64,000 nucleotides of DNA from Sulfurospirillum deleyianum DSM 6946 (GTDB lineage: Bacteria; Campylobacterota; Campylobacteria; Campylobacterales; Sulfurospirillaceae), in the NCBI RefSeq assembly GCF_000024885.1, contig NC_013512.1:1364001-1428000 (forward strand). Reading direction: 5' to 3'. This document shows positions 9,175 to 59,943 of the stretch, piece by piece. Each line of letters begins with the position of its first letter. Within the stretch, counting starts at the first letter, position 1. A program made the translations under genes and the position numbers. The notes beneath the pieces were generated by a model. That model was not told where the DNA came from and searched no databases. It saw only the letters and a program-made list of their open reading frames with translations.

Positions 9175-9205
9175 AAAAGGTTGCCCCAATGGGGCAAAAC
9201 CTTTT
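9175..9205 (-). terminator. Terminator of the hrcA-grpE-dnaK operon
   Basis: Inverted repeat AAAAGGTTGCCCC / GGGGCAAAACCTTTT with a three-base loop and a two-base bulge, 15 bp past the dnaK stop. A full copy of the iterated palindrome (9203-9214) overlaps its upstream arm. Confidence 0.75.
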
Positions 9206-9214
9206 ACATGTAAA
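9203..9214. repeat. Iterated palindrome TTTACATGTAAA, intergenic copy after dnaK
   Basis: Full copy between the dnaK stop and its terminator hairpin, which shares its first bases. Confidence 0.85.
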
Positions 9215-11776: not shown

Positions 11777-12589
11777 CTACTCCTTAACTTGATTAAAAAA
11801 TGTTTCGAAATCACTCTCAATTCGTCCAAAACAAAAAAGATCAACCGTTGATTCTTCATCAAGGAGTTGTGCCTTTTGTTTAATCGCCATACATCCTCTT
11901 GGAACAAACCCATCAAAATAGAGCCCATTTTCAATCGATTTTACAAAATGAAGCATTTGAAAGGTACGAATCAATGCATCATTTTGTAATTCATGTGCAA
12001 TGGAATAAATAACCTTATCTCCCTCTCGCAACAATGAAGCGTGTGAAAAAAGAGCTAAAAGCTTGTCGTGAAGCTCATAAAGTCCCACCTGAGCGGCGAT
12101 ATCTTTAAGCTCTTGCATCGTACATCCTATAAATCTCTGTAAAAAATGCTCGACCTTATTATTATACTGCAAGACAACCTCATGCTTATCAAAAACCAAA
12201 ATTAAAAAACGCTTATCAACCACAAGAATCTCTTTAAATAAAAGATCCGTTGACGGTTCAACAATACAAAAAAGCTGATGGGAATGTGTCACATGTTTAA
12301 GGGTATCAATGCTTTTTAATTTCACAGGATGCGTGACATCAAGCTTCTCTTCCCAATAACCTCTTAAGGCACTCAGCGTTGGAACTCGACCACTGCTTAC
12401 ATGTAACTGTTCAAGAGAACCCTCATCAGAAAGTTTTTTAAAATAAATACGAATCGTAGAAGGGGAAAGTCCTAAGGTCATCTTCATCTGCAATTCAGAA
12501 GAGCCAATAGGTGCTTTTGATTTTAGATATGCTTGAATAATCGATTCTAAAATCAACTCTTGTTTTGAAGCTTTTTTCATTTTTAGCAC
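11777..12589 (-). CDS. hrcA: Heat-inducible transcription repressor HrcA
   Basis: HrcA binds CIRCE operators and represses chaperone operons. The N-terminal winged helix (residues about 5-75, with GLSPSTIRIYFKKL as recognition region) is followed by the dimerisation/GAF-like part. At 270 residues it is shorter than Bacillus HrcA but normal for this phylum. The GTG at 12589 has AAGGGG at 4-5 nt and lies inside a CIRCE-like site. The ATG at 12580 (MKKASK) is an alternative start. It is the first gene of the operon and is probably autoregulated. Confidence 0.92.
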   Translation of the reverse strand: MLKMKKASKQELILESIIQAYLKSKAPIGSSELQMKMTLGLSPSTIRIYFKKLSDEGSLEQLHVSSGRVPTLSALRGYWEEKLDVTHPVKLKSIDTLKHVTHSHQLFCIVEPSTDLLFKEILVVDKRFLILVFDKHEVVLQYNNKVEHFLQRFIGCTMQELKDIAAQVGLYELHDKLLALFSHASLLREGDKVIYSIAHELQNDALIRTFQMLHFVKSIENGLYFDGFVPRGCMAIKQKAQLLDEESTVDLFCFGRIESDFETFFNQVKE

Positions 12590-12672: not shown

Positions 12673-12684
12673 TTTACATGTAAA
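12673..12684. repeat. Iterated palindrome TTTACATGTAAA, intergenic copy
   Basis: Full copy between the hrcA promoter region and the 57-residue gene, within CTCTTT...AAAGAG, so it may form the terminator of that small operon. Confidence 0.8.
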
Positions 12685-13155: not shown

Positions 13156-13379
13156 CATAAATATGAATAATTTATACTCTATTCTATCTTAAAAAATACA
13201 TTTTACTGTTTTTTTATAAAATATATATACATTTTATAAGTTAAAAAGTTATTTTTATACGTTTTTCTGTATAAAAATAAAAAAAGTTGCAGAAAAGGAA
13301 AGAAACTGTTTTCGACAAAAGAATAAAATGAGTTTTGAAGGTTACATGTAAAGAAGAAAAATAAAAAGGAAGCAAAGGC
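13156..13379. other. AT-rich spacer between the HTH gene and the rpsO terminator
   Basis: This spacer has no supported gene. A minus-strand frame through it lacks a start with a ribosome binding site and reads Phe/Tyr/Lys-rich low-complexity sequence. It contains one palindrome copy with an outer mismatch (core 13344-13349). Confidence 0.6.
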
Positions 13380-16506: not shown

Positions 16507-17532
16507 ATGAACTATAAACTACATCACCTCTCGCATACCGATTTGGATGGCTATGGCTGTCAAATGGTGAGTGCTCATTTTTTTGATTCAATCAGTTTTT
16601 ACAACTCTAATTATGGCAAAGAAATTAACGAATGTTTTAATCAAATTTTAGCCCAAATACAAACCTCCTCTTTTGAAAAACATGTGATTCTTATTACCGA
16701 CCTTAACCTAACGATGGAACAAGCCACAGAGTTTCAAGCCAAAGTAAATATTGCTGAAAAAGAGATACTTTTACTTCTCTTAGACCATCATAAAACAGGT
16801 GAAGAGTGCGCGAATACTTATGAATGGTATTACTTAGATTCCAGTCGCTGTGCCACTAAAATTACCTATGATTTTTTCAGTGCTCTTTATGGACACAATG
16901 AAGCCTTATCTCATTTTGTAAATGTGGTCAATGCTGTGGATATTTGGTTAGAAAATGACCCTCATTTTGAGTTAGGAAAAGTGTGTATGGGACTTGTAAG
17001 TAGTGCTAAAGAGGTCAATAAAATCATGTTTCCTGAAGAAAACACTCAGTATATTTTTTCTCTTCTCTCTCAAGCCCAAGCCTTCTTTACATGTAAAGAT
17101 GCGCACATCGCTTTAGATGATGCCATCCATGGAATTAAAAAGAGCTACTTTAAGAGTAACAAAAATGACACCCTAAGCAATCTTATTTCTGCGTACAATG
17201 TTCGTTTATTAACCCAAAACAAAGAGAAAATGCAAATTAATTACAAAGAATATAAAGGGATATTGACCTATAACATTGGCAATGTATCTGTCATTGGCAA
17301 TGACTTCCTAAGCGCTAACCCTGATTTTGATTTTTTTATGGATGTCACCTCTAAAAAGACCATTAGTTTACGCTCTAGCGGTAAAGTAGATGTCAGTAAA
17401 ATCGCCGCACAAATCGCCAATGGTGGAGGACACCACAATGCAAGTGGCGGTCTTCTCAGCAATTTCAAAGACGCTTTTATCTATGATAGTATCAAATCTC
17501 AAGTGATGAATATCATCGCCAACAAAGGATAA
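16507..17532 (+). CDS. DHH-family phosphoesterase
   Basis: Metal-dependent phosphoesterase of the DHH/DHHA1 superfamily. It has HTDLDGYG near residue 10, DHH at about 95 (LLDHHKTGEE), and the C-terminal GGGHHNASGG motif of DHHA1. Relatives include nanoRNases and c-di-AMP or pAp phosphatases, so degradation of short oligonucleotides or cyclic dinucleotides is possible, without a way to choose by eye. 341 residues. A full palindrome copy (17086-17097) encodes FTCK. Confidence 0.88.
   Translation: MNYKLHHLSHTDLDGYGCQMVSAHFFDSISFYNSNYGKEINECFNQILAQIQTSSFEKHVILITDLNLTMEQATEFQAKVNIAEKEILLLLLDHHKTGEECANTYEWYYLDSSRCATKITYDFFSALYGHNEALSHFVNVVNAVDIWLENDPHFELGKVCMGLVSSAKEVNKIMFPEENTQYIFSLLSQAQAFFTCKDAHIALDDAIHGIKKSYFKSNKNDTLSNLISAYNVRLLTQNKEKMQINYKEYKGILTYNIGNVSVIGNDFLSANPDFDFFMDVTSKKTISLRSSGKVDVSKIAAQIANGGGHHNASGGLLSNFKDAFIYDSIKSQVMNIIANKG
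17086..17097. repeat. Iterated palindrome TTTACATGTAAA, full copy in the DHH gene
   Basis: Full copy read as Phe-Thr-Cys-Lys, the alternative open frame of the palindrome. Confidence 0.85.
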
Positions 17533-17832: not shown

Positions 17833-18525
17833 CGCTATAAATGTCGCAAAATTTCCCCACTTAAAAATGGTCTCAATCGTTGTAAAACCAATATCTTTCA
17901 GCATGGCTTTATTCTCTTCTTCGGTGTAAGGAATCAAAACATTTTCTAGGGCTTCTCTTTTTTGCGCAATCTCAAAATCACTATACCCTTGTGTGCGCTT
18001 AAACGCATAATACAAATCAATCATCTCTTTATTAAGCACTTTATCGTCAAAGACAATTTTTTCACTAAAAAGAAACAATCCATCAGGGTTGAGTGCGTCA
18101 TAAATTTTACGTACAAAATCACCTCGTTGCAAAGGGCGAATAAATTGAAGCATATAATTAGCAATAATCACATCTTGATGGCTAAGAGCTACTTGCGTAA
18201 TATCTGCTTCTTGAAGCTCTATTTTTGCGCCATACGCATGGACTTTTTGCTGTGCAATGCGCAACATCGCCTCAGCATTATCAATCCCTAAGAGATGATA
18301 GCTTTTGTTCATTTTATGCAGAGCAAGAAGGGTATTTGCCGTGGAACAGCCAAGGTCTACGACGCGCGCATTCTCTTTTACATGTAAACAAATCATTTTA
18401 CATGTAAGCTCTAAAACTTCTTTGTAAAAAGGAATGGAACGCTCTAGCATATCATCAAAAACGATGGCGACATCCTCATCAAACTCAAACTGTTTACTAA
18501 TGGGTTTTGTAAAGACCTTATCCAT
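17821..18525 (-). CDS. cmoA: Carboxy-S-adenosyl-L-methionine synthase
   Basis: CmoA makes carboxy-SAM for cmo5U34 modification of tRNA wobble bases. The 234-residue SAM-fold protein has [15 protein letters not shown] and the family segments [23 protein letters not shown] and [26 protein letters not shown], close to E. coli CmoA. Two palindrome copies 20 bp apart (18377 and 18397) fall in the variable stretch before the SAM motif and encode LTCK and LHVK. It overlaps ribF by 8 bp. Confidence 0.93.
18377..18408. repeat. Two tandem copies of the iterated palindrome inside cmoA
   Basis: TTTACATGTAAA (18377-18388) and TTTACATGTAAG (18397-18408) with an 8-base gap, both read through by the cmoA frame. 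Confidence 0.85.
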
Positions 18526-19358: not shown

Positions 19359-22765
<3,407 letters not shown>

Positions 22766-23407: not shown

Positions 23408-24550
23408 CTAAACAATAGTCTGAAGCGCACGTGCAACGCTGAGTGCCTGCACATGTTCATACACATCATGCGCTCTAATAATACTTGCTCCATGCTCATA
23501 CGCTTTTACATGTAACGCCAATGTCCCCGCTAAACGCTTTTCTATAGGCGTAGCAATAATTTTATCAATCATAGATTTTCGACTCGCTCCCACCAAAAGA
23601 GGATAACCAAAACGTAAAAAATGCTCATGATGTTGAAGCAGTTGTACATTCTGCTCTAAAGTTTTACCAAAACCAATTCCCACATCCAAAATAATCTTCT
23701 CAATTCCAAAGCGTTTTGCTTTTTCAATGCGTTCTTCAAAAAACGCATCCACTTCAAGCACAACATTCTCGTACTTTGGGGATTCTTGCATGGATGATGG
23801 CTCACCTTTCATATGCATCAGCACCACACTTGCCTGATGCGTTGCCGCCATACGTGCCACATCATCATTGGCTAACGCAGTAATGTCATTGACGATTTGA
23901 AATCCCCTTGAAAGCGCATACTCTAAACATAAAGGGGAGTAACTATCAAGCGAAAATTTGGCTTTACATGTAAGATGATGTTGAGCGATCAAATCCACAA
24001 TGGGGGCAATGCGAGAGAGCTCTTCCTCTTCACTCACACCAACACTACCAGGACGGCTTGAAACACCACCCACATCAATGATGCTTGCACCCTCTTCTAT
24101 CATGCGTTCAATGTGCCTTAACGCAGCTTTCCCACTAAAACGACTGCCTTGAAAAAAACTATCTTCATTGGTATTTAAGATGCCCATAACTGAAAAATCA
24201 TGTTTACATGTAAAGCGTAATTCCTCCAACTCTTTAGCTAACGCTTTCAATCCAAAAGGCTGAACTCTCTCTTTGATACTCAGCTCTTTTAACTGTTTAT
24301 CATTCGCTATTAAAAGCGCATCCACCATAGGTACTTTACATGTAATCGTCTCTTTAGGAACGGCTAAATCAGCACCAATGGAAAGAGCGTCTTGTTTTAA
24401 AATATTGGCAGCAGGCGTTTTTAAATCTTTGATATAGATAAGATTGAGATGCGCTTTTTGCTTTAAAATCGCACACCCCTCAGGGGTAACATCCAATTTT
24501 TTTAAAAGTGCTTCAAGAGGTGTATGAGAGGAGAGTTTATAACAATTCAT
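23408..24550 (-). CDS. folP: Dihydropteroate synthase
   Basis: FolP condenses p-aminobenzoate with the pterin pyrophosphate in folate synthesis. The catalytic TIM barrel starts near residue 120 (MGILNTNEDSFFQG), with EGASIIDVGGVSSRPGS, FQIVNDITAL and GASIIRAHDV following. The 110-residue N-terminal extension is typical of Campylobacterota FolP and not of E. coli. Four copies of the iterated palindrome fall in this gene (cores 23518, 23966, 24206, 24338), the highest density in the window. It overlaps the holB-like gene by 4 bp. Confidence 0.94.
   Translation of the reverse strand: MNCYKLSSHTPLEALLKKLDVTPEGCAILKQKAHLNLIYIKDLKTPAANILKQDALSIGADLAVPKETITCKVPMVDALLIANDKQLKELSIKERVQPFGLKALAKELEELRFTCKHDFSVMGILNTNEDSFFQGSRFSGKAALRHIERMIEEGASIIDVGGVSSRPGSVGVSEEEELSRIAPIVDLIAQHHLTCKAKFSLDSYSPLCLEYALSRGFQIVNDITALANDDVARMAATHQASVVLMHMKGEPSSMQESPKYENVVLEVDAFFEERIEKAKRFGIEKIILDVGIGFGKTLEQNVQLLQHHEHFLRFGYPLLVGASRKSMIDKIIATPIEKRLAGTLALHVKAYEHGASIIRAHDVYEHVQALSVARALQTIV
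23515..24346. repeat. Cluster of four iterated-palindrome copies inside folP
   Basis: Copies at 23515-23526 (ending C), 23963-23974 (ending G), 24203-24214 (full) and 24335-24346 (ending T). They are read as ALHVKAY, LTCKAKF, FTCKHDF and ITCKVP in FolP. Confidence 0.85.
24203..24214. repeat. Iterated palindrome TTTACATGTAAA, full copy in folP
   Basis: The one full 12-base copy among the four in folP, read as Phe-Thr-Cys-Lys. Confidence 0.85.
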
Positions 24551-27465: not shown

Positions 27466-28521
27466 GTGTTAGCCTATATGCATATCCCCTTTTGCGACAG
27501 TAAATGCCCTTACTGCGCTTTTAACTCTTATACCAACCAAAGCAAACTCAAACAAACCTACATGCAACGCTTGATTGAACAGCTACGCTTTGAGTTAGAA
27601 AAATTTAACGTACAAAAAGGTGAAATCAACTCCCTATTTATTGGGGGAGGAACACCTTCAACCATTCCTGCTTCGTGGTATGCTCCTTTATTTGAGATGC
27701 TTTCTCCTTATCTTAGCAAAGAAGCAGAACTGACCTCCGAAGCCAATCCTCACTCAGCGACCCAAGCATGGATAGCAGGGATGAAAGAGCTAGGCATCAA
27801 CCGCTTAAGCTTTGGTGTACAAAGTTTCAACACAGAAAAACTCCAATTTTTAGGGCGAAACCATAGCCCAAAGATGGCAGAAGAAGCCATTATCAATGCA
27901 CACCATTTAGGTATCCAAAATATCTCTTTAGATTTGATGTATGGCACAGCACTTGATACCCCGCACCTCTTACGTGAAGATTTGAAATACGCACGCATGC
28001 TTCCTATTAATCATCTCAGTGCTTACGCCCTCACGCTTGAAGAAGAGACTCCTTTTTATACCCAAAAAAATGTTATCAATAGCGAGGAAGCCCTTGCAAG
28101 AACTTTTGTACAGGAGATTATTGATGCGGGATTTCCCCAATACGAAATTTCAAACTTTGGCAGCTATGAGAGTTACCATAATAAAGGCTATTGGGAACAT
28201 CAAGATTATTTAGGATTAGGGGCTGGAGCGGTTGGATTTTTACACCATCAACGTTTTTATCCTGCTAAAAAAGTAGAAGATTACCTCCAAAATCCATGCT
28301 ATCAAGCGATAGAAGAACTCAGCATAGAAGAGTTACATGTAGAAAAAATTTTTTTAGGATTACGTAGCTGTGTGGGCATTGATAGAACCATTCTCAATGC
28401 TAAAGAAGAAGAAAACGTAGCCCTTTTACTTCAAGAGAATAAACTTACATGTAAAAACAATCGTCTTTATAACAAGGACTATTTTTTAAGTGATGAGTTG
28501 GCGTTATTTATCACCCGCTAA
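27466..28521 (+). CDS. hemW: HemW-type radical SAM protein (oxygen-independent coproporphyrinogen oxidase-like)
   Basis: Radical SAM protein with the cluster motif CDSKCPYC immediately after the N-terminus, then FIGGGTPSTI and NRLSFGVQSFN. HemW is a heme chaperone rather than a true coproporphyrinogen oxidase; the short N-terminus is that of HemW. I chose the GTG at 27466 preceded by AAGGA at 5 nt; an ATG at 27421 would add 15 residues with no resemblance to the family. 351 residues. Its 3' end overlaps the convergent antiporter gene by 18 bp. Confidence 0.9.
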   Translation: MLAYMHIPFCDSKCPYCAFNSYTNQSKLKQTYMQRLIEQLRFELEKFNVQKGEINSLFIGGGTPSTIPASWYAPLFEMLSPYLSKEAELTSEANPHSATQAWIAGMKELGINRLSFGVQSFNTEKLQFLGRNHSPKMAEEAIINAHHLGIQNISLDLMYGTALDTPHLLREDLKYARMLPINHLSAYALTLEEETPFYTQKNVINSEEALARTFVQEIIDAGFPQYEISNFGSYESYHNKGYWEHQDYLGLGAGAVGFLHHQRFYPAKKVEDYLQNPCYQAIEELSIEELHVEKIFLGLRSCVGIDRTILNAKEEENVALLLQENKLTCKNNRLYNKDYFLSDELALFITR

Positions 28522-30126
28522 CGCCTCATCCTCTTCCATCGCAACCTTTAAAAGGGCTTTTGCTGCTTCTCGCCCTTCGTTGACAATGTGCTTTACATGT
28601 AAAGATTTCAGAAGCTTCTTCTCATCATAATCACTCGCTTTGGCAACAATTTTAATGGGTGCATTAAACGACTTTAAAATTTCACACAATAAAATCAACT
28701 TTTTTTCATTATTAATCGCAACAATCACCGCTTTAGCATTTTCAACAAAAGCATTTTTCAAGATGCTTTTTTCCGCCGCATTGCCAAAATAGACAGGCTC
28801 ACCCCTACTTTGACCCAATTTAACCAGATTAATGTCATGCTCTAAGACCACATAATTCACATTCATCTTTTTCAAACGATAGACAATTTCCTGACCTAAC
28901 TTTCCATACCCACACACGATAATATGATCTTTAATGCCTGATGAATGAATCATAAAATCTCCATTGCTAGGCTCTTTGGTAATGGCATCGACAATTTTTT
29001 TCATATTTTTTAAGATAAAAGGTGTCATGACCATCGATAAAACAACCGTCACAATCAAAATCTGAGTCACGGTGTTACTGAGCAAATGACTCGAACTAGC
29101 GAGTGCTAAAATGGCTAAAGAAAACTCTCCTCCTTGACACAAAGCAAGTCCTGTTTTAAGCGCAACCCTACCACCCACAGAGAAAAATAAAATGGCAAAA
29201 ACAACGGCAATTTTCAAAGCTAACATCAACACCAACGAGAGCAAAATCATCTCATAATTTTCAACCATCAGATTAAAATCAATTTGCATCCCCACGGTAA
29301 TAAAAAAAAGTCCTAACAATAAATCACGAAAAGGAACAAGGTCAGCCTCAATTTGATGTTTGTACTGACTCTCAGACATCATCATGCCCGCTAAAAAAGC
29401 ACCCAGTGAATACGAAAATCCTAACATATGTGCCAAAAACGATGCCCCCACCACAAATAAAAGCACCCCCGCAATAAAAATTTCCTGTGTATCTGCCCAA
29501 ACTACCAGCGATAAAAAACGATTGAGAACATATTTACCGATAAGATACATCAATCCTAAAATGATGACTACACTGTAAAATGTCTGCAATAAAAGCGCAG
29601 AAAGAGTGCTTTGTTCGTTGGAAAAGATATGAATCATCAACAAAATCGGAATCACTGCAATATCTTGAAACAACAAAATACCTAAGGCTTTTCGACCATA
29701 AACGGTATGAATCATTCCCTTATCGTTAAAAATTTTCAAGACAATCGCAGTAGAAGAAAGGGCTAAAGCATAACCAATCATAATGGCACTTTTTTTCTCC
29801 ATGCCAAATAAAAACTCAGCACTTAACGCAATCACACCGCCCACAAGTCCTACTTGCAAAAGACCATAAAAAAAGACATCTTTTTTCATTGCCATCAAAT
29901 GCTTAATGGAAAACTCAAGCCCAATCGTGAACATCAAAAAGACAATACCAAACTCGGCAATATGCGTTAAAGAGTCGTTATTACGCCCCAATTCAAAAAG
30001 ATACGCAATAGCAAAACCTGTAAAAATATACCCGATAATCGTAGGAATATTAAACCGTTTTAAAATAATGTTCAAAAATGTTGCTATTGCCGTAGCACTG
30101 AGAATGATCGTGAGTAAATTATCCAA
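28504..30126 (-). CDS. Kef-type (CPA2) cation:proton antiporter with RCK domain
   Basis: Residues 1-380 form about twelve membrane helices of the Na/H exchanger fold, with IGYIFTGFAIAYLFELG and LLFQDIAVIPILLMIHI. Residues from about 395 form an RCK/TrkA-N nucleotide-binding domain beginning HIIVCGYGKLGQEIVYRL. Relatives exchange K+ (or Na+) for H+ under redox or pH control. It is the third gene after cbpA and hspR, an order also found in Campylobacter. A palindrome copy (28592) encodes SLHVKHIV near the C-terminus. Confidence 0.9.
   Translation of the reverse strand: MDNLLTIILSATAIATFLNIILKRFNIPTIIGYIFTGFAIAYLFELGRNNDSLTHIAEFGIVFLMFTIGLEFSIKHLMAMKKDVFFYGLLQVGLVGGVIALSAEFLFGMEKKSAIMIGYALALSSTAIVLKIFNDKGMIHTVYGRKALGILLFQDIAVIPILLMIHIFSNEQSTLSALLLQTFYSVVIILGLMYLIGKYVLNRFLSLVVWADTQEIFIAGVLLFVVGASFLAHMLGFSYSLGAFLAGMMMSESQYKHQIEADLVPFRDLLLGLFFITVGMQIDFNLMVENYEMILLSLVLMLALKIAVVFAILFFSVGGRVALKTGLALCQGGEFSLAILALASSSHLLSNTVTQILIVTVVLSMVMTPFILKNMKKIVDAITKEPSNGDFMIHSSGIKDHIIVCGYGKLGQEIVYRLKKMNVNYVVLEHDINLVKLGQSRGEPVYFGNAAEKSILKNAFVENAKAVIVAINNEKKLILLCEILKSFNAPIKIVAKASDYDEKKLLKSLHVKHIVNEGREAAKALLKVAMEEDEALAGDK
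28592..28603. repeat. Iterated palindrome TTTACATGTAAA, full copy in the antiporter gene
   Basis: Full copy read as Leu-His-Val-Lys in the RCK domain. A copy with one outer mismatch lies in hemW 148 bp away (28444). Confidence 0.85.
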
Positions 30127-33021: not shown

Positions 33022-33043
33022 TATAATATTTTTTACATGTAAA
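33022..33043 (+). promoter_or_regulatory. Probable cprR -10 element with palindrome at the expected start of transcription
   Basis: TATAAT at 33022-33027 just after the htrA terminator, followed by a full palindrome copy at 33032-33043. The expected transcription start is about 33034-33035, so the palindrome sits over it and could serve as an operator. Confidence 0.5.
33032..33043. repeat. Iterated palindrome TTTACATGTAAA, copy at the cprRS promoter
   Basis: Full copy 17 bp before the cprR start codon and just after the -10 element. Confidence 0.85.
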
Positions 33044-39884: not shown

Positions 39885-39896
39885 TTTACATGTAAA
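39885..39896. repeat. Iterated palindrome TTTACATGTAAA, intergenic copy after lolA
   Basis: Full copy between the lolA stop and its terminator hairpin. Confidence 0.85.
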
Positions 39897-41223: not shown

Positions 41224-42561
41224 TCATTTACCTAAACAAAAACTGCCAAACATTTTATCTAAAATCTCATCTCTATCAAATGCCATCGAAATAGAAGAAA
41301 TGGCCGTAATAGCATCATTAAGATGAAAAGCAAATAGTTCTAATTGCCCTTCATTAAGAAGCAGTGTAGAGGTTTGTATATTTTCATAGGCTCTTCGTAC
41401 GGCATCAATCTGCCGAGAGGATGTCAATAAAAGGCTATCTTCATACACCGTTTGATCCAGAATCGTTTGTAGTGCTTTTACAACACTCTGTGTCTCTTTT
41501 TGACACGTCAAAGAGATCACCTCTTTTGATAAACGCTTGACATCAAAAGCATTTGGTAAATCCGTTTTATTTAAAAGACTCACAATCTGTTTTGAATCAC
41601 GATAACGTTCCAACAAAGAGAGTATTTCTTCATCTTCATCATCGCATAAACGACTGTTATCAAAGAGCGCCAGTACAATTTCAGACTCTTCGATTGCCAT
41701 AATAGAACGCTCAATACCTATTTTTTCGATGCTATCTTCTGTTTTACGAATGCCTGCCGTATCCACAATCTTAACCAAATGCGTGCCTATACGAATCTCT
41801 GCTTCAATCGTATCGCGTGTGGTTCCTGCCACATCACTAATAATAGCTCGCTCATAATTTAAAAGGTTGTTTAATAAAGAGCTTTTACCAACATTAGGCT
41901 TTCCAATAATAGCAATTTTGAATCCTTGCATCATCCCTTGACGGCGTTTACTGCTCTCATATGTTTTGAGTAACTCTTCTAAAATAGCATCCAATTTTTG
42001 CTGAATGGTCTCTAACATATCTTGAGGTAAATCTTCTTCTGCATAATCAATATTGACTTCCACAAAAGCTAAAATTTCAATTAAAAGATTTCTTACATGT
42101 AAAACAAACTCTTTTAATTCACCCTTTAACTGTCGTGTCAACATTTTAGCAGCATCCACACTCTTTGTTTCAATGAGTGCAGCAATCGCTTCTGCTTCGC
42201 TTAAATCAATTCTACCATTTAAAAATGCCCGTTTGGAAAATTCACCTGGTTGGGCTAAGCGTACACCATAATGCAATAACGTTTCCAGAACCATACTCGC
42301 AACCATGCTTCCACCGTGACACTGAAACTCTACGACATCTTCAGCCGTAAAACTGTGCGGAGCTTTAAAGTAGATAACAATCGCTTGATCCACAACATCA
42401 TGGAGCTGATCGTACAAAAAAGAGAGGGTGGCTTCTCGTGGCTTTAACGAGACTTTTTGTGTCAGTTTTTGAGCAACAAGAAGGGCATTAGGACCGCTAA
42501 CTCGAACAATAGCAATCGATCCAATGCCCGAACTTGTGGCAATAGCAGCAATCGTATCTAT
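41224..42561 (-). CDS. mnmE: tRNA modification GTPase MnmE, with an apparent ATA start
   Basis: MnmE with MnmG modifies U34 of certain tRNAs. The N-terminal tetrahydrofolate-binding part begins DTIAAIATSSGIGSIAIVRVSG, then come the GTPase domain (GKPNVGKSSLLNNLL, DTAGI, NKTD) and the C-terminal FCLGK with its cysteine. The conserved N-terminus is encoded, but no ATG, GTG or TTG lies between the in-frame stop at 42571-42573 and it. The fitting first codon is ATA at 42559-42561, overlapping the jag stop as ATAG, with AGGA 7 nt before. The first canonical codon is TTG at 42417, which would remove 48 conserved residues. 445 residues as given. Confidence 0.88.
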   Translation of the reverse strand: MDTIAAIATSSGIGSIAIVRVSGPNALLVAQKLTQKVSLKPREATLSFLYDQLHDVVDQAIVIYFKAPHSFTAEDVVEFQCHGGSMVASMVLETLLHYGVRLAQPGEFSKRAFLNGRIDLSEAEAIAALIETKSVDAAKMLTRQLKGELKEFVLHVRNLLIEILAFVEVNIDYAEEDLPQDMLETIQQKLDAILEELLKTYESSKRRQGMMQGFKIAIIGKPNVGKSSLLNNLLNYERAIISDVAGTTRDTIEAEIRIGTHLVKIVDTAGIRKTEDSIEKIGIERSIMAIEESEIVLALFDNSRLCDDEDEEILSLLERYRDSKQIVSLLNKTDLPNAFDVKRLSKEVISLTCQKETQSVVKALQTILDQTVYEDSLLLTSSRQIDAVRRAYENIQTSTLLLNEGQLELFAFHLNDAITAISSISMAFDRDEILDKMFGSFCLGK

Positions 42562-43520: not shown

Positions 43521-45115
43521 TTTTCAGCCTTTTGTTCTTCCTGCTTTTTCGCAAAAAGTTTATTGACATAAAACTGTTGAACAATCGATGCTAAATTGTT
43601 AGTAAACCAATACAAAGTAAGACCTGCTGGGAAAGTTACAAAGAAAAATGTAAAAATAAGTGGCAAGTATTTCATAATTTTTTCTTGCATCGGATCGTTA
43701 AAGGTTGTTGGGGTAATTCTTTGATGTAAAAACATTGTAAGACCCATTAATACAGGTAAAATAAAATAAGGGTCCATCACCGCCAAATCCTGTACCCATA
43801 AAATCCATGCAGCACCTTTAAGCTCAATCGCATTTTGTAAAACACGATAAACAGCAAAAAAGACAGGAATCTGAAGCAAAATAGGTAAACATCCACCCAT
43901 AGGATTTGCACCATGCTTTTTATAGAGCTCCATCATATGAATATTAAGCTTCTGTTTGTCATCCCCATATTTCTTTTGTAACTCTTTGACTTTAGGAGCA
44001 AGCTCTTTGAGCTTATTCATAGAAACCATACCTTTATACGTCAAAGGATAAAGCACTAAACGGACAATAATGGTCATAGCAACAATCGCCCAACCCCAGT
44101 TTCCAAAAATACCGTGCAAGAAAGACAAAAGTGTAAAAAGTGGTTTAGCAATAAACGTAAAAAAGCCATATTCAACCACATCTGTTAACCCAGGATGAAT
44201 CTCTTTAAGTTTGACATACTCTTTAGGACCGACATAACCGCTTAATTTAAAATCATCATTACCTTTAACAAATAAAAGAGGATTGCTCTCTTTACTAGGT
44301 AAAATAACCGTTTCTAATCCACTGCTTAGCTCATAAAAGAATGTTGTGTAGTATTTATCAGCAGCTGCAGCAATACGTGCATTTGAGAACTTTTCATCCC
44401 CTTTTGCATCACCATCGGCAATGGTTTGAACCGTATCATCTGCTTTTTTAATCAATGCACCATGAAAGGTATAACTATCAATAGCCGCACCTGGTCTAAA
44501 ACCAGGAGAGATAAAGTAATCTTTAGCATTTGAAAGCTTTACATGTAAATCATACTTTCCTGATGGGAAAAAAGTGATACTTTTTGTTAAAGTTATTTCA
44601 CCTAGCTTTTGTGTCAAATCAACCGTACTACCTGTTTCACTGACTTCTACAACACTTTTATCCGCACTGTAAGACATTAAAAAAGCATCTGAATTCACTG
44701 CTTTATCACTAAAACGAATCTCTAATGGTAAAACACCTTGTGACGCATCAATCAACTGAATACGCTCACCTTTGTCATCTTTATATTTTGATTCATTAAG
44801 GTAAAACTTTGAAATACGTCCTAATCGATCAATATGCATTTCATACGAAGCTGCTTTGATTTTCACTATGACTTCATTCTGACTTTCTTTACCTACTAAA
44901 GGCGTTTGAGCAATTTCTTGACTGCTGGTTGCTTCTTTAAATTCAGGAGCACTTGTAGCAGAAGATGCAGGTGTGGCTTGTTCTGTTATAGAACTATTTG
45001 TTTCAGCTAACGGGGTATTTTTTGGAATAAAAAAGTGATCATAAAAAGCAAAAAATAAGAATGATAAAACTGTAGCGATAATAACACGCACCTGAGGAGT
45101 AAGTTTATCTGTCAC
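43517..45115 (-). CDS. yidC: Membrane protein insertase YidC
   Basis: YidC inserts and folds inner-membrane proteins alone or with SecYEG. Helix 1 at residues about 10-28, a large periplasmic domain (about 60-320), then five helices with the family motifs ANPMGGCLPILLQIPVFFAVYRVL and FPAGLTLYWFTNNL. I start at the GTG at 45115 (VTDKLTPQVR), which overlaps the yidD stop as GTGA; a longer frame upstream lies within yidD. 532 residues. A palindrome copy (44538) encodes LHVKLSNAKD in the periplasmic domain. Confidence 0.96.
   Translation of the reverse strand: MTDKLTPQVRVIIATVLSFLFFAFYDHFFIPKNTPLAETNSSITEQATPASSATSAPEFKEATSSQEIAQTPLVGKESQNEVIVKIKAASYEMHIDRLGRISKFYLNESKYKDDKGERIQLIDASQGVLPLEIRFSDKAVNSDAFLMSYSADKSVVEVSETGSTVDLTQKLGEITLTKSITFFPSGKYDLHVKLSNAKDYFISPGFRPGAAIDSYTFHGALIKKADDTVQTIADGDAKGDEKFSNARIAAAADKYYTTFFYELSSGLETVILPSKESNPLLFVKGNDDFKLSGYVGPKEYVKLKEIHPGLTDVVEYGFFTFIAKPLFTLLSFLHGIFGNWGWAIVAMTIIVRLVLYPLTYKGMVSMNKLKELAPKVKELQKKYGDDKQKLNIHMMELYKKHGANPMGGCLPILLQIPVFFAVYRVLQNAIELKGAAWILWVQDLAVMDPYFILPVLMGLTMFLHQRITPTTFNDPMQEKIMKYLPLIFTFFFVTFPAGLTLYWFTNNLASIVQQFYVNKLFAKKQEEQKAEK
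44538..44549. repeat. Iterated palindrome TTTACATGTAAA, full copy in yidC
   Basis: Full copy read as Leu-His-Val-Lys in the periplasmic domain of YidC. Confidence 0.85.
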
Positions 45116-46497: not shown

Positions 46498-46939
46498 AAG
46501 CTATAGCTTCTCCCTTCACGGGGGAATGTGACATGATATTTTTCCACATCAGATCAAAATGTTTACGAATAAAGCCTGTTTTATGAGGAATGGTACACTG
46601 TGAACAATCTAAATGCATCACGTTTTCATAAATAAACCATGTTGCTTTTCGAGAATGAATCGAACATTCACTTTTCACACACATTCCATTGATCTCTTTT
46701 AATCCTAAATCATTAAACCGAAAATAAGGACATGCACACAAATAGCAGTTTAAATTATCCATGGTATGGCATTTCTCATGCGATTCGTATAAAGGGCAAA
46801 ACTGTGGCTCAGCATTACACATATGCTCATACGCAAAATAAGCAATTATCTCTTCTTTATCATCCCCTTTACATGTAAGCTTTTTCACAATTTCTTGATG
46901 CTTAATATTATGTGCCAAAAACCAATCAAAATAAGCCAT
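46478..46939 (-). CDS. Cysteine-rich small-domain protein (metal-binding, unknown function)
   Basis: A 153-residue protein with 13 cysteines. The segments NLNCYLCACPYF and DCSQCTIPHKTGFI resemble the cysteine-rich small domain of Pfam PF04071 (pattern NCLFCYCPLY and DCxxCxxPH), recalled rather than searched. Such domains probably bind metal; some relatives lie near cobalamin genes. There is no signal peptide. A palindrome copy (46868) encodes LTCKG. Confidence 0.78.
   Translation of the reverse strand: MAYFDWFLAHNIKHQEIVKKLTCKGDDKEEIIAYFAYEHMCNAEPQFCPLYESHEKCHTMDNLNCYLCACPYFRFNDLGLKEINGMCVKSECSIHSRKATWFIYENVMHLDCSQCTIPHKTGFIRKHFDLMWKNIMSHSPVKGEAIASILKDR
46496..46511. terminator. Short palindrome in the overlap of convergent genes
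   Basis: AGAAGCTATAGCTTCT, a 16-base perfect palindrome spanning the cytochrome stop codon and lying inside the 3' end of the Cys-rich gene. It may end the cytochrome transcript. Confidence 0.5.
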
Positions 46940-47002: not shown

Positions 47003-47425
47003 ATGAAAAAATTTTTAACCATTTTAACGCTTATTTCAACACTTTTGGCTGAAAATCCTAATGATTTAGATGAAATTAAAGAAGAAGATATCCCAAAAAT
47101 TCTCTCTATTATTAAAGATGGTACCAAAGAGCATTTGCCTATGATGCTTGATGATTATACAACCCTTGTGGATATTGTGAGTGTTCAAAATGCTATCGAA
47201 TACCGCAATCGCATCAATTCAGAAAACGAACACGTTAAAACGATTCTAAAAGCAGATAAAGGAACGCTTATTAAAACGACCTTTGAAAACAACAAAAGTT
47301 ACCTTTGCAATGACTATGAAACACGTATGCTTCTTAAAAAAGGAGCTATTTTTATTTATGTCTTTTATGACTTAAGCGATACAGAACTTTTTAAATTCTC
47401 AGTGCAAGAAAAAGATTGTCAATAA
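47003..47425 (+). CDS. Small secreted protein of unknown function
   Basis: A 140-residue protein with a signal peptide (KKFLTILTLISTLLA) and a mature part of mixed alpha/beta character: EEDIPKILSIIKDGTKEHLPMMLDDYTTLVDI and KSYLCNDYETRMLLKKG. Two cysteines near the C-terminus may form a disulfide. Not recognised. The start ATG follows GAAAGGAAGG. Confidence 0.75.
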   Translation: MKKFLTILTLISTLLAENPNDLDEIKEEDIPKILSIIKDGTKEHLPMMLDDYTTLVDIVSVQNAIEYRNRINSENEHVKTILKADKGTLIKTTFENNKSYLCNDYETRMLLKKGAIFIYVFYDLSDTELFKFSVQEKDCQ

Positions 47426-47461
47426 CTTCTTACATGTAAAACACTCTTTACATGTAAGAAG
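47426..47461. terminator. Terminator hairpin built of two inverted palindrome copies
   Basis: CTTCTTACATGTAAA and TTTACATGTAAGAAG form a perfect 15 bp stem with a six-base loop, between the convergent secreted-protein gene and clpB. Each arm contains one copy of the iterated palindrome, which is itself self-complementary. Confidence 0.85.
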
Positions 47462-47469
47462 TCTCTTTC

Positions 47470-50040
47470 TTAATGGCGAATTACAATTTTTCCATTCTCT
47501 GCATCAATGACGATCCCCTCACCTTCGTGAAGTTTATCTTCCAAAATCAACTCAGCCAATTTATCCTCGACGAGTTCATACAAAGCTCTCTTTAACGGAC
47601 GAGCACCATAAACAGGATCAAATCCAGCCTCAGCTATCAAACTTTTAGCCGTCGTTGTCAATTCTGCTTTAATCTCTTTATGAGCAAGTTTCTTTTCAAT
47701 ATCACCAAACATAATGGTAACAATCTCACGTAAACCATCTTCACTCAGCGGATTAAAGATGATGATGTCATCCAAACGGTTTAAAAATTCAGGCTTAAAG
47801 TGCATACGTAACTCTTTCATCACCTCTTCGGTGCGTTTTTCGCCCTCAAACTCCATAATTTTGCTACTTGCGATGTTAGACGTTAGAATAATAATCGTAT
47901 TTTTAAAATCAACCGTCACACCTTTATTATCCGTCAAACGCCCTTCATCCAACACTTGAAGCAAGATATTAAAGACATCGGGATGCGCTTTTTCGATTTC
48001 ATCAAAAAGAACGACGCTGTAAGGTTTTCGTCGTACTGCTTCAGTCAGTTGTCCACCCTCATCATAACCCACATACCCTGGAGGTGCTCCAACCAAACGA
48101 CTGACGGAATGTTTTTCCATATACTCACTCATATCAAAACGAATGAGCGCTTTGGTGGTATCAAATAAAAAGTTAGCTAACGCCTTCGCACTTTGTGTTT
48201 TACCCACACCTGTTGGGCCAAGAAAGAGAAAACTACCAATAGGTTTATTTTGCTCACTCAGTCCTGCTTTATTACGTTTTATCGCACGACCTATCGCCTT
48301 AATGGCAGCATCTTGACCGACCACTTCTTTTTTGAGATACTCTTCTACATGTAAAACTTTTGCTTTCTCACTTTGGAGCATTTTATTGACAGGAATTCCC
48401 GTCCATTTGCTAACGATGGTCGCTATCATCTCCTCATCGACGCTATTTTTAAGGAGCGTTCCACTTTCCACCATCTTTTCCCATTTGAGTTTTAACTCTT
48501 CCTCTTTTTTCAAAAGCTCAGGAAGTTTGCCATACTCAATTTCAGCGGCTTTGTTAAATTCACTCTGTTTTTTCGCTATCTCAGCTTCTCTACGCAGAGC
48601 TTCTGCTTGTGATTTAATGGCTGCAATATCATTAAAAACCTGTTTTTCATTTTCAAACTGCGTCTCTAAAGAACGCATCTTCTCTTTGGCATCGCCTAGC
48701 TCTTTTTCAATCGCACTTAAACGCTCATCATTCTTCTTGTTTTTTTCCATTAAAAGCGCTTCTTTTTCAACCATCAACGTACTAATTGCACGCTTAATAC
48801 GACTAAGCTCTGTGGGTTCACTCTCAATTTGCATCTTAAGCTCAGCAGCTGCTTCATCAATTAAATCAATCGCCTTATCGGGTAAAAACCTATCAGAAAT
48901 GTAGCGAGAACTAAGCTTCGCCGCGGCAATCAATGCGGAGTCTTGAATACTCACATTGTGATGCGCTTCTAAATGCTCTTTAATCCCTCTCAAAATCTGT
49001 AAAGCTTCGTTAATGCTAGGTTCATTCACCGTTACAGGCTGAAAACGGCGCTGTAACGCCGCATCTTTTTCAAAATATTTGCGATACTCTCTGAGCGTTG
49101 TCGCACCAATCGTATGCAATTCACCACGAGCTAAAGCTGGTTTAAGAATGTTAGCCGCATCCATACTACCCTCACTCGCTCCCGCACCGACGATGGTATG
49201 GATTTCATCAATAAATAAAATGACATTGCCACTTTTTTTCACTTCATCAATCACGGCTTTAAGACGGTCTTCAAACTCGCCACGGTACTTTGCTCCCGCA
49301 ATCAAAGCGCTCATATCCAAAGCGACCACACTTTTATTTTGTAAACTTAAAGGCACATCATTATGGGCAATTCGAAGTGCCAATCCCTCAGCAATCGCCG
49401 TTTTACCCGTTCCAGGTTCACCAATTAAGATAGGATTGTTTTTCGTTTTTCGAATCAAAATCTGCATCATTCTTTGAATCTCTTCATCCCGCCCAATGAC
49501 AGGGTCAAGTTTGCCCTCACTGGCAAGTTTAGTAAGATTAATACCATACTTCTCAAGCGATTCGAGATTTTCATCGGCACTTTGCTTGTCTATTTTTTTA
49601 CCGCCACGCAACGCTTCAAGATTTTTCTTAAATGCTAAAAGATCAAGATACTTACCTAAAATTTTTTTCAAAGGCTCATTCTCAATGTTTGCGAGTAACC
49701 ACGTATCCACAGAAAGGTAGCTATCCCCTTTTTGCTTCATTAACCCCTCTGCTTTTTGAAGAGATTCAACCAAAGTGCGTGAAAGTGAGATATTTTCTTT
49801 GCTAACATGCGAAGCAGTAGGCAATTTTTGCACCTCGCTTTTCACTTCAAGTTCTATTGCACTCTTGTCAATGTTCATTTTATTAAAGACTTGATTGAGG
49901 ATGGAAGCCGAATTGGTAATCAGTCCCCACGTTACATGTAAAGGAGTGGCTTCATTATTTTTGGAATGCAACGCAAGGCTAATCGCACTCTCTATCGCCT
50001 CTCGCATCTGATTGGTAAGTTGTTCAAAAAGTGAGTTCAT
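47470..50040 (-). CDS. clpB: Disaggregase ClpB
   Basis: ClpB rescues aggregated protein with DnaK. Two AAA+ modules: Walker A GEPGTGKT (residues about 203-210) and GPTGVGKT (about 600), with a long coiled-coil middle domain (about 400-520, Glu/Lys-rich) between them, and an N-terminal Clp_N domain. 856 residues, normal length. It has its own promoter with a HAIR-like site. A palindrome copy (49931) encodes LHVTWG near the N-terminus. Confidence 0.97.
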
Positions 50041-55043: not shown

Positions 55044-55080
55044 TCAAAGTGCTTTTTTCTTTACATGTAAAGCACTTGAA
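55044..55080 (+). promoter_or_regulatory. Hairpin in the htpG leader containing a palindrome copy
   Basis: TTCAAAGTGCTTT and AAAGCACTTGAA pair over about 12 bp with one bulge; the 3' arm overlaps a full palindrome copy (55060-55071). It lies 28 bp before the htpG start and could act on mRNA stability or translation. Confidence 0.5.
55060..55071. repeat. Iterated palindrome TTTACATGTAAA, copy upstream of htpG
   Basis: Full copy inside the leader hairpin, between the plsC terminator and htpG. Confidence 0.85.
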
Positions 55081-55108: not shown

Positions 55109-56980
55109 ATGTCAAAACATCAATTTCAAACCGAAGTAACACAACTTCTCGATCTTATGATTCACTCTTTGTATTCAAACAAAGAGATTTTTTTACGTGA
55201 ACTTATCTCCAATGCGTCCGATGCACTCGATAAGTTAAACTACCTCACACTAACCGACGATACCTACAAAGCACTTTCTTATGTGCCACGTATTGACATT
55301 GCCATCAATAAAGAAACTAAGACACTAACACTTAGCGACAGCGGTATTGGTATGAATGAAGAAGAGTTAATCGAAAATCTCGGAACCATCGCTAAAAGTG
55401 GTACCAAATCATTTTTACAAAACCTCAGTGGTGACAAAAAGAAAGACTCTAGCCTCATCGGTCAATTTGGTGTTGGCTTCTACTCTGCTTTTATGGTTGC
55501 CAACAAAATCGAAGTCATAAGTCGCAAAGCTGGCGAAGAAAAAGCCTATATGTGGAGCAGTGAAGCAGGAGCTGAGTATGACATCGCTGAAGTGACCAAA
55601 GAGAGCCATGGTACGTCCATTACCCTTTACCTTAAAGACGATGAAGATGAATTTTTAGAGTTTTACCGCATTCAAAGTGTCATCAAAAAATACTCAAACC
55701 ACATTCCTTTCCCTATTTTTATGGACAAAGAAGTGAAAAAGTATGATGATGAGGGCAAAGAAAAAAGCTCTGAGATTAAAAACGAGCAAATCAACAAAGC
55801 CAGTGCCCTTTGGACAGTCGCCAAAAGCCAAATCAAACCTGAAGAGTACAAAGACTTTTACCAACAAATCTCTCACGATAGCACCGATCCACTTCTTTGG
55901 AGCCACACAAAGGCTGAGGGTAAATATGAATACACCACCCTCTTCTACATTCCTTCCACTCCTCCAATGGATTTGTTTAGAATGGACTATAAACCGGGTG
56001 TTAAACTCTATGTTAAACGCGTTTTCATTACGGACGATGAGAAAGAGTTATTGCCAACCTACCTTCGTTTTGTCAAAGGTATCATCGATGCGGAAGACCT
56101 ACCACTCAACGTCAGCCGTGAGATTTTACAACAAAACAAAGTGCTAGAGACCATCAAAAAAACTTCGGTGAAAAAAATCCTCAGCGAACTTAAATCACTC
56201 AAAGAAAAAGAGAACGATAAATACCTAGAGTTCTACAAAAACTTTGGGCGTGTCATTAAAGAAGGTCTTTACAACGACTGGGAAAACAAAGAAGCCTTGC
56301 TTGAATTAGTACTTTTCAAATCTTCAAAAAGAGATGGTTTAGTAAGCCTTAAAGAGTACAAAGAGGCGATGAAAGAAGATCAAAAAAGCATTTACTACAT
56401 CACGGGTGAAAATGAGAAATTACTGCGCAATTCTCCACTCATTGAGCAGTTTAAAGCCAAAGACATTGAAGTTCTACTCCTTGATGAAGAAGTGGATGCC
56501 ATCGTCTTCCCAATGGTCGGTGAATACGATAAAACCCCAATCAAACCGGTCAATAACTCTGACATTGACGAAGAGATCAAAGAAGATAAAGCGAAAGTCG
56601 AAGAGGATGAGAAAACCTACAAAGAGATTTTAGTCAAAATGAAAGAGATCCTTAAAGACGATGCCAAAGATGTCAAAATCTCCAGTCGTTTGAGCGATTC
56701 TCCATCATGCCTCGTGTACGATAAAAACGACCCAGACTTCCAAATGCAACAGATGCTAAAACAGATGGGACAGGACAATCTCCCAGCCGTTAAGCCTATC
56801 TTAGAGATCAATCCTGAGCATGAAATTTTCAAAAAATTAAGTGCCAAATCTGATCTTTTAGAGCTTAATGACATTGCTTTCTTGCTTTTGGATCAAGCCA
56901 AACTTCAAGAAGGAATGAAGATAGAAGATACCGCCGCGTTTGCAAAACGTTTGAACCGTTTTATCGCTAAAGCGCTTTAA
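55109..56980 (+). CDS. htpG: Chaperone HtpG (Hsp90)
   Basis: Bacterial Hsp90. The GHKL ATPase domain starts [34 protein letters not shown], whose motif is given here only in part, and has DSGIGM and GQFGVGFYS. Middle and C-terminal dimerisation domains follow. 623 residues, complete. Start ATG after AAGGAAATCGACT. It has no HAIR-like site that I can see, unlike clpB and cbpA. Confidence 0.96.
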
Positions 56981-56987
56981 AACATGC

Positions 56988-57019
56988 TTTACATGTAAGG
57001 ATTTTTCCTTACATGTAAA
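56988..57019 (+). terminator. htpG terminator built of two inverted palindrome copies
   Basis: TTTACATGTAAGGA (56988-57001) and TCCTTACATGTAAA (57006-57019) form a perfect 14 bp stem with a TTTT loop, 7 bp after the htpG stop. It has the same design as the pair before clpB. Confidence 0.85.
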
Positions 57020-58197: not shown

Positions 58198-59943
58198 CTA
58201 ACCTCTTTGCATGTAAAGCGTTATTGCCCTCACCGCTTCAGGATACGCATGGGCATACTTTTGAATCCCTGAGCCAAAACTCTCCAACATATCTTTCACA
58301 CGAACAGACAGTGCGGTGTCATCTTCAATCTTCGCCAATTCAAAAAGATTTTTAATCATCGTTGAGAGTGGGCTTTTGTAGCTATTGTCTTCCAAAACGG
58401 CCTTAGCACGAAAGGCTTTGTCGGAGAGATACCACGTCTCTTCTTTGTAAAATTTATGCTCTGCCTCATGGCTTAACTTTTTTGCTAATTCCAAGTAATG
58501 TGTCTCTTTCGTATGTGTGTAGCCACGTAGTAACGCTTCAATCACAAAAGCATAATCTTCGAGCAATGCTTCCACTTTCAAACTGCCACCTAAGACGATT
58601 TGATGGTACAAAACGCCGTTTACATGTAACGTGCTTAAAAGCGTATCTAACACATTTTTCGCTTTCTCAATTTTACCTGCCTCAAAAAGTGCTGTGATCA
58701 TTAAAGCGTTCCACGAGGTCAAAATTTTGGTGTCGATAAACGGATACGCTACCTTTTGACGTTCCTCTTTTAAAATAACAACAGCGTCATTCAACCGAGC
58801 AGGTTTTTCATTACATGTAATCACAGGATTAGTGCTCTGGTGTTCAAAATTGCCAAACTTTGTGATGCCAAAATAGTCCATCACGGTTTTGGTTTCGACC
58901 TCACTGAGGCCTCCTTTTAAAAGCGCTTCTTTGGCTTCTTTAAAACCAAACACAAAGTATTTACCCTCTTCTCCTTCAGAGTCTGCGTCACTCGCACTGA
59001 GGTAAAGTCCCTCTTTTAAAAAGCGCTCATCCATCGCTTCGATGGTTTTATCGACGACCTCTTTAAACAGCGGTTTTTGTGTCAGAGTGTACAGTTTGGC
59101 ATAGACTTCGATCAGCTCAGCATTGGTATAAAGCATCTTTTCAAAATGAGGAATCACCCATGCTTCATCGACACTGTAACGGTAAAATCCACCTTCGATT
59201 TGGTCGTTGATGCCTCCATTTGCCATGGCTAAAAGTGCATCTTCACTCATATACAACGCTTCAAGGTTTTTGGTTTGGGCGTAAATATCTAAAAGAGCAT
59301 TCCATGTTGAAGCATGTGGGAATTTTGGAGCATGTCCTACACCTTTAGAGACATCATCATAACTTGCTTTGACATTGCGCACAAACGCTTCTAAAACACG
59401 CTCTTTATCAATGTGCTCTTTTTGCTCAAAACTGCGCTCATACTGCTTAAGTGCTGCTTCAATACTCTGCGCACTCTTTTGAACTTCCTCAAAATCATCG
59501 TCAAACTTACCTTTGATGAAACTGGTCAGTTCACGAAATCCCATGCGTCCTTGCATACTTTGAGGTGGCAGATATGTTCCTGCAAAAATAACCTGCTGTG
59601 TGGGTGTCATAATGATACTCAGCGGCCAACCACCACTGCGTTTGGTGAGCAGATAATGCACGTCTTGGTAGTATTTATCCAAATCTGGCATCTCTTCACG
59701 ATCGACTTTGATGCTTATGTATGAGTCGTTGAGCAGCTTTGCACTCACTTCGTCCTCAAAGGTCTCTCGCTCCATCACATGACACCAATGACAGGTGCTA
59801 TACCCGATGGAGAGAAAAATCAGCTTGTTTTCATTTTTGGCTTTTTGTAGCGCTTTATCGCTCCATGCCATCCAATGGACGGGGTTGTGAGCGTGTTGGA
59901 GTAAATAAGGAGAATCCTCATGGATTAATTCATTGGTGTGCAT
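58198..59943 (-). CDS. DUF255/YyaL-type protein with N-terminal thioredoxin-like domain
   Basis: N-terminal thioredoxin-like domain with [19 protein letters not shown], and a CxxC site at [17 protein letters not shown]; the remainder (residues about 180-580) looks like an alpha/alpha barrel related to N-acylglucosamine epimerases. The family is widespread (YyaL and human SPATA20) with no secure function. 581 residues; family members often have 600-700, so the C-terminus may be slightly short. Two palindrome variants (58619, 58810) fall in it. Confidence 0.88.

Follow-up and report, generated by a model that had tools for sequence, protein, structure and literature searches.

A highly iterated palindrome of Sulfurospirillaceae, associated with an orphan adenine methyltransferase and probably recruited in close pairs as 3'-end hairpins

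Highly iterated palindromes (HIPs) are known from cyanobacteria, in which HIP1 gives way to alternate palindromes in certain relatives and has been linked to orphan methyltransferases (Elhai 2015, PMC4390886); methyl-biased mismatch repair has been proposed as the origin of these palindromes (PMC4390886). In Neisseria, pairs of DNA uptake sequences (DUS) act as terminators, and every genome there that has a DUS dialect contains inverted pairs (PMC2397512, PMC3630211). In Campylobacter jejuni, DNA is taken up only if it carries a methylated motif, the sites of which are methylated by CtsM (PMC8468864).

Here, we describe a 10-bp perfect palindrome, TTACATGTAA, of Sulfurospirillum deleyianum DSM 6946 and its relatives, with a 64-kb stretch of the chromosome (contig NC_013512.1, positions 1,364,001 to 1,428,000; hereafter ‘the window’) as the point of departure. 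An earlier note on the window had drawn attention to two sites at which two copies stand close together after a stop codon. The explanation that we consider likely has two layers: a methyltransferase-linked highly iterated palindrome, and close pairs of that palindrome that have been recruited as 3'-end hairpins.

The palindrome is present in 32 copies in the window and 1,099 in the S. deleyianum genome, whereas the reversed sequence, taken as a control, has 3 copies genome-wide. Its exact form dominates: against the 1,099 exact copies stand 226 variants with one mismatch in the whole genome, where the reversed control has about 90 such variants. Density is 0.35/kb in genes and 1.1–2.6/kb in intergenic DNA. 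Counts range from 49 to 1,496 in genomes of the same genus, from 6 to 733 in other genera of the family, and from 0 to 6 in other families. Such genome-wide abundance, far above expectation, is the mark of a highly iterated palindrome. Two Sulfurospirillum plasmids are poor in TTACATGTAA (4 copies in one, with 17.8 expected; in the other, 2 copies over its first 50 kb, with 23 expected), and hundreds to thousands of conserved copies, with few in acquired DNA, are what is found in uptake sequences as well. One 20-kb stretch of the chromosome (L016, G000 C1:1800001-1820000) is low in GC (29.5%), holds just two palindromes, and is probably acquired DNA. In 20 samples of the same genome (L001–L020) together with the window, GTCGAC (2 versus 28 expected) and CAATTG (27 versus 113) are strongly avoided, as under restriction. 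The open-licence papers searched contained no earlier report of the TTACATGTAA repeat, and the literature searched on Sulfurospirillum DNA uptake and methylome yielded nothing relevant.

Exact copies of TTACATGTAA are retained at 17 of 20 orthologous sites in each of two relatives (G014 and G005) and at 7 of 7 in a third (G008). At coding sites the figures are 13/14 (G014) and 12/14 (G005), compared with 14–26% for matched coding 10-mers of equal GC content. The sites, in genes as well as outside them, are flanked by A/T-rich tracts at -5 to -8 and -16 to -20 (sides pooled), in phase with the helix at one and two turns from the palindrome centre, an arrangement that indicates a protein reader of double-stranded DNA. 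Alternate palindromes in relatives, a further feature of HIPs, are represented by CTACATGTAG in G036, by CTACATGTAG mixed with TTACATGTAA in G025, and weakly by ATCATGAT with TATCATGATA in G026, where the excess is smaller; all four palindromes have CATG at their centre. In samples of G026 (L057, L069–L075), TCATGA/ATCATGAT is about 2–4-fold over-represented, possibly as a similar palindrome or as a decaying one.

At site 1, CTTCTTACATGTAAA (47426-47440) and TTTACATGTAAGAAG (47447-47461) form a perfect stem of 15 bp, or of 16 bp (47425-47462) if A47425–T47462 is counted. The hairpin begins at the TAA stop (47423-47425) of a 140-aa gene and faces clpB (Table 1). At site 2, TTTACATGTAAGG (56988-57000) and CCTTACATGTAAA (57007-57019) pair over 13 bp, extended to 14 bp by an inner A–T, downstream of the htpG stop, which ends at 56980. 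Fold energies are -20.0 kcal/mol for site 1 and -22.1 kcal/mol for site 2. Stems built of two copies of TTACATGTAA at stop codons, as the earlier note described them, can thus be read directly from both sites. That note also stated that the copies are inverted and the arms self-complementary, which is true but carries no evidential weight, because both properties are automatic for any palindrome. DUS and the USS of Pasteurellaceae are non-palindromic, so that inversion of a DUS pair is specific, whereas any two palindromes are inverted; the pairing is therefore not diagnostic, and the tie between TTACATGTAA and uptake sequences that the earlier note had drawn from it is not supported on this ground. 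Among ten further Sulfurospirillum, the left-arm copy of hairpin 1 is identical in eight (changed in G009, one base off in G021) and the right-arm copy in nine (changed in G009). Directly downstream of hairpin 2 lies a gene for an Mrr-type restriction endonuclease (57132-58040, + strand; PF04471, PF14338); the sequence past the hairpin varies among relatives, so this gene may be a strain-specific insertion.

Table 1. Palindrome copies, hairpins and adjoining genes in the window (positions counted from its first nucleotide).
Feature	Positions	Strand	Remarks
Single palindrome copy	4213..4222		
Single palindrome copy	4325..4334		
Single palindrome copy	4728..4737		
Single palindrome copy	8049..8058		
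Single palindrome copy	9204..9213		intergenic
Single palindrome copy	12397..12406		
Single palindrome copy	12674..12683		intergenic
Single palindrome copy	13342..13351		intergenic
Single palindrome copy	17087..17096		
Close pair, spacer 10	18378..18407		in gene; almost no flank complementarity; conserved in G014, G005
Single palindrome copy	19850..19859		
Single palindrome copy	20644..20653		
Single palindrome copy	23506..23515		
Single palindrome copy	23964..23973		
Single palindrome copy	24204..24213		
Single palindrome copy	24336..24345		
Single palindrome copy	28445..28454		
Single palindrome copy	28593..28602		
Single palindrome copy	33033..33042		intergenic
Single palindrome copy	39886..39895		convergent gene gap
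Single palindrome copy	42093..42102		
Single palindrome copy	44539..44548		
Single palindrome copy	46869..46878		without counterpart in relatives
140-aa gene, upstream of hairpin 1	47003..47425	+	no Pfam match
Hairpin 1: ACTTCTTACATGTAAA / loop ACACTC / TTTACATGTAAGAAGT	47425..47462		between convergent 140-aa gene (+) and clpB (-)
Palindrome copy, hairpin 1 left arm	47430..47439		
Palindrome copy, hairpin 1 right arm	47448..47457		
clpB, convergent partner at hairpin 1	47470..50040	-	
Single palindrome copy	49932..49941		within clpB; conserved
Single palindrome copy	55061..55070		upstream of htpG; conserved
htpG (Hsp90), upstream of hairpin 2	55109..56980	+	
Hairpin 2: TTTACATGTAAGGA / TTTT / TCCTTACATGTAAA	56988..57019		8 nt past htpG stop
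Palindrome copy, hairpin 2 left arm	56989..56998		
Palindrome copy, hairpin 2 right arm	57009..57018		
Single palindrome copy	58620..58629		
Single palindrome copy	58811..58820		

Whole-genome pattern searches, together with individual genome stretches, were used to survey such pairs. With spacers of 3–33 bp, 52 pairs of TTACATGTAA were found versus 16 expected under random placement in the whole genome, and with spacers of 10–13 bp 25 versus 2.1, the expectation ignoring intergenic clustering, which by our own rough estimate would raise it less than two-fold. Thirty-one of the 35 pairs with spacers of at most 16 bp follow a stop codon (20 in convergent gaps and 11 in tandem), three lie in genes, one has an unknown left neighbour, and none is in a divergent gap; these placement counts carry some error, as genes were called with a simple codon-score ORF caller. 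Convergent gaps, which make up 16% of intergenic bases, hold 20 of the 35 (p = 2e-9). The genome-wide survey that the earlier note had proposed thus finds, at the level of sequence, an excess of close pairs after genes.

The bases flanking the copies also pair. In the 35 short pairs, the complementary run in the inner flanks averages 2.20, whereas permutation of the right halves between pairs gives 0.92 (p < 5e-5), and that in the outer flanks is 1.20 versus 0.79 (p = 0.0075); at longer spacers the inner run shows no excess (1.06 versus 1.17). GGATTTTTCC recurs as the inner sequence of several pairs; in most pairs, the inner and outer sequences differ from those of the others. The in-gene pair of the window (Table 1), judged by its flanks, is not a selected hairpin. 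Two other in-gene pairs (L035 1966 and L040 1982; G000 1020965 and 1264181) have identical spacers and near-identical flanks, which indicates a duplicated gene. Extension of single copies into longer palindromes is overall not above permuted controls (three copies in divergent gaps exceed them, a small number), and single copies are therefore not generally hairpins.

Compensatory change is seen at both sites of the window. The site 1 hairpin is kept in 17 of 17 orthologous records (some from the same genome), with an outer stem of ACTTC/GAAGT in some and TATCT/AGATA in others. In an alignment of seven distinct rows, made by hand on the arms with loops removed, 8 of 15 stem pairs are changed on both sides and 95% of cells pair, a score reached by none of 500 shuffles. 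The site 2 hairpin is kept in all 23 same-genus genomes, with fewer changes and modest covariation. Together with the flank pairing, these changes bear out the proposal that matching bases beyond the palindrome reflect selection for the hairpin. The most telling genome is G009, in which the palindrome is nearly gone (49 copies; 0 of 11 orthologous sites retained). Both hairpins persist there without an intact palindrome, as ATTTCTGGCATGTT/AACATGCCAGAAAT and CTTTGCCTGTAAGG/CCTTACAGGTAAAG, their arms changed in concert; because paired substitutions preserve these stems where the palindrome has decayed, selection acts on the hairpin independently of the palindrome. Motif-poor genomes of the genus have proportionally more of their copies in pairs (observed/expected pairs 18–240, from small counts), and in sister genera with CTACATGTAG, close CTACATGTAG pairs mostly have pairing inner flanks. 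These sequence comparisons support the view that close pairs after genes are selected as hairpins.

As in an intrinsic terminator, a stable hairpin stands just past the stop codon and is kept by compensatory change, and transcription termination is the most likely function of the paired hairpins; alternatively, they may protect RNA 3' ends. The U-tract is weak, with a T fraction of 0.43 in the 8 nt after paired stems. Strong gene-end hairpins without paired copies are no better, with 0.36–0.45, and the best hairpins at other gene ends have 0.34–0.38, so weak U-tracts are the rule in this genome and not specific to pairs. The resemblance to the paired DUS/USS terminators of Neisseria and Pasteurellaceae lies in an abundant repeat, close pairs after genes, terminator-like hairpins, and sister lineages in which variant motifs form such pairs too; the differences are that the Sulfurospirillum repeat is a true palindrome, of which any pair is inverted, and that the U-tract is weak. 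By this analogy, the paired hairpins would work on the same principle as DUS pair terminators.

A candidate enzyme for the palindrome itself is encoded at G000 C1:2136383-2137351, an adenine methyltransferase of the D12 class (PF02086), about 323 aa long, that contains the motifs DLFSGSG and DPPY. In S. deleyianum and relatives its gene is surrounded by housekeeping genes, and no restriction partner was seen next to it. Twelve genomes of the genus with an orthologue (at least 57% identity) have 362–512 palindromes/Mb, and the seven in which it is absent or divergent have 19–389 (p = 4e-5, for same-genus genomes at least 90% complete, treated as independent). On an htpG tree, the methyltransferase was lost in at least three separate places, as in G009 (49 copies) beside G012 (1,056), in G020 (238), and in the pair G010/G011 (412 and 168). 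Exceptions are G017, which has 934 copies without the enzyme, and, in a sister genus, G027 (567). Within the genus, palindrome abundance thus follows the orphan methyltransferase with one clear exception (G017), an association and not a demonstration of cause, for a candidate drawn from few gene families tested, so that another gene could fit equally well or better. Homologues with 44–50% identity are found in motif-poor genomes and in genera that have other palindromes. They also occur in other families, where a check for enriched palindromes found no 10-bp palindrome comparable to TTACATGTAA.

The orphan D12 methyltransferase is probably the reader or the writer of TTACATGTAA. That its target is CATG is a guess, which fits the shared palindrome centre. 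Phage homologues are named after the CATG-specific enzyme of Helicobacter pylori (M.HpyI, hpyIM), other homologues after FokI or LlaI; homologues bearing the H. pylori name are only about 31–36% identical to the Sulfurospirillum enzyme. A sequence search for a solved structure of the D12 methyltransferase returned none. A second D12 homologue, 49% identical, is carried beside an IS21 element by plasmid pSDCE1 of S. diekertiae ACSDCE (L202 1692-2732). In the sister genomes G021 and G002 (L144, L166), a divergent methyltransferase (50–52%) occupies another locus and palindrome counts are intermediate (411 and 605), a pattern that suggests replacement of the enzyme. Two further candidates were rejected: a PF01555 N6_N4 methyltransferase as partner of the palindrome (missing from most motif-rich genomes) and comEC presence as an explanation of motif loss (no association).

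In the two-layer explanation, TTACATGTAA would be the highly iterated palindrome of Sulfurospirillaceae, a double-stranded DNA site kept exact in and outside genes by selection on its sequence, and perhaps methylated at the central CATG by the orphan D12 enzyme. Where two copies stand 10–13 bp from each other shortly after a stop codon, the transcript could fold into a hairpin of 13–16 bp. On many separate occasions such pairs have probably been recruited to form 3'-end hairpins, which are most likely transcription terminators and often serve both genes of a convergent couple, and a recruited hairpin would gain selection of its own and outlive the palindrome. Like HIP1 and its alternates, TTACATGTAA is an exact high-copy palindrome with alternates in relatives and an abundance that is associated in the genus, exceptions aside, with an orphan methyltransferase. 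It differs in being 10 bp long and AT-rich, in belonging to the Campylobacterota, in the D12 adenine class of the enzyme, and in its apparent recruitment as paired 3'-end hairpins, of which we found no report for HIP1. By these likenesses, the cyanobacterial highly iterated palindrome appears to be a better parallel than DNA uptake sequences.

Two other accounts of the pairs must be weighed. The peak at spacers of 10–13 bp places palindrome centres 20–23 bp apart, about two helical turns, as would suit proteins binding cooperatively to DNA with no RNA hairpin involved. We regard this as very unlikely, because base pairing of the inner flanks greatly exceeds chance, pairs are scarce in genes and absent from divergent gaps, and the stems of G009 persist by paired substitutions without the palindrome. 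An origin as a REP/BIME-type mobile repeat spread by a transposase is extremely improbable: the inner sequence GGATTTTTCC is common to several pairs, as it might be in copies of one element with shared flanks, but most pairs have different inner and outer sequences that nevertheless pair internally, which indicates independent origins, and single sites keep their positions from one species to another.

The palindrome itself could be an uptake sequence whose pairs double as terminators, with methylation marking own DNA for uptake in the better-fitting version; we hold this to be a real, if lesser, possibility. Features that recall DUS (PMC2397512, PMC3630211) are a density of about one copy every 2 kb, strong conservation, the existence of dialects, and pairs in the place of terminators; Campylobacter uptake needs a methylated motif (PMC8468864), which resembles TTACATGTAA in being short, genome-wide and, through CtsM, connected with a methyltransferase, here a candidate one, in the Campylobacterota. 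Plasmids and the low-GC island are poor in copies, and 29 of the 30 family genomes tested carry the channel gene comEC. The phased A/T flanks, in genes as well, are reminiscent of USS. Against this, TTACATGTAA is a perfect palindrome and not an oriented, non-palindromic motif, comEC does not track motif abundance and is present in motif-poor genomes too, and the literature searched held no Sulfurospirillum transformation data. Membership of TTACATGTAA in the DUS/USS class is thus not supported, although, by analogy with Campylobacter, a methylated palindrome could serve in uptake. Conversely, biased mismatch repair at methylated sites might create and protect the palindrome as a by-product with no selected function, as in the model and precedent of cyanobacterial HIPs (PMC4390886), and abundance in the genus does track the methyltransferase. 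This seems unlikely to us: it requires a methyl-directed nicking system, and both the exact coding conservation and the phased flanks suggest a protein-bound site.

The most interesting part of the two-layer explanation is the distinction between selection on the hairpin and selection on the palindrome, with its methyltransferase association. With lineages that retain the hairpins despite loss of the motif, Sulfurospirillum offers a clean comparative case in which a DNA motif is separable from the RNA hairpin built of it. More tentatively, and with considerable doubt, the palindrome may be methylated by the orphan adenine methyltransferase and act as a lineage-specific mark of self-DNA with dialects, its pairs recruited as terminators; if true, this would join the features of HIPs, the methylation-gated uptake of Campylobacter and the paired DUS terminators. 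The two-layer explanation would carry the phenomenon of highly iterated palindromes outside the cyanobacteria and supply both a candidate enzyme and lineages with natural losses, so that the purpose of such palindromes would become testable in culturable Sulfurospirillum.
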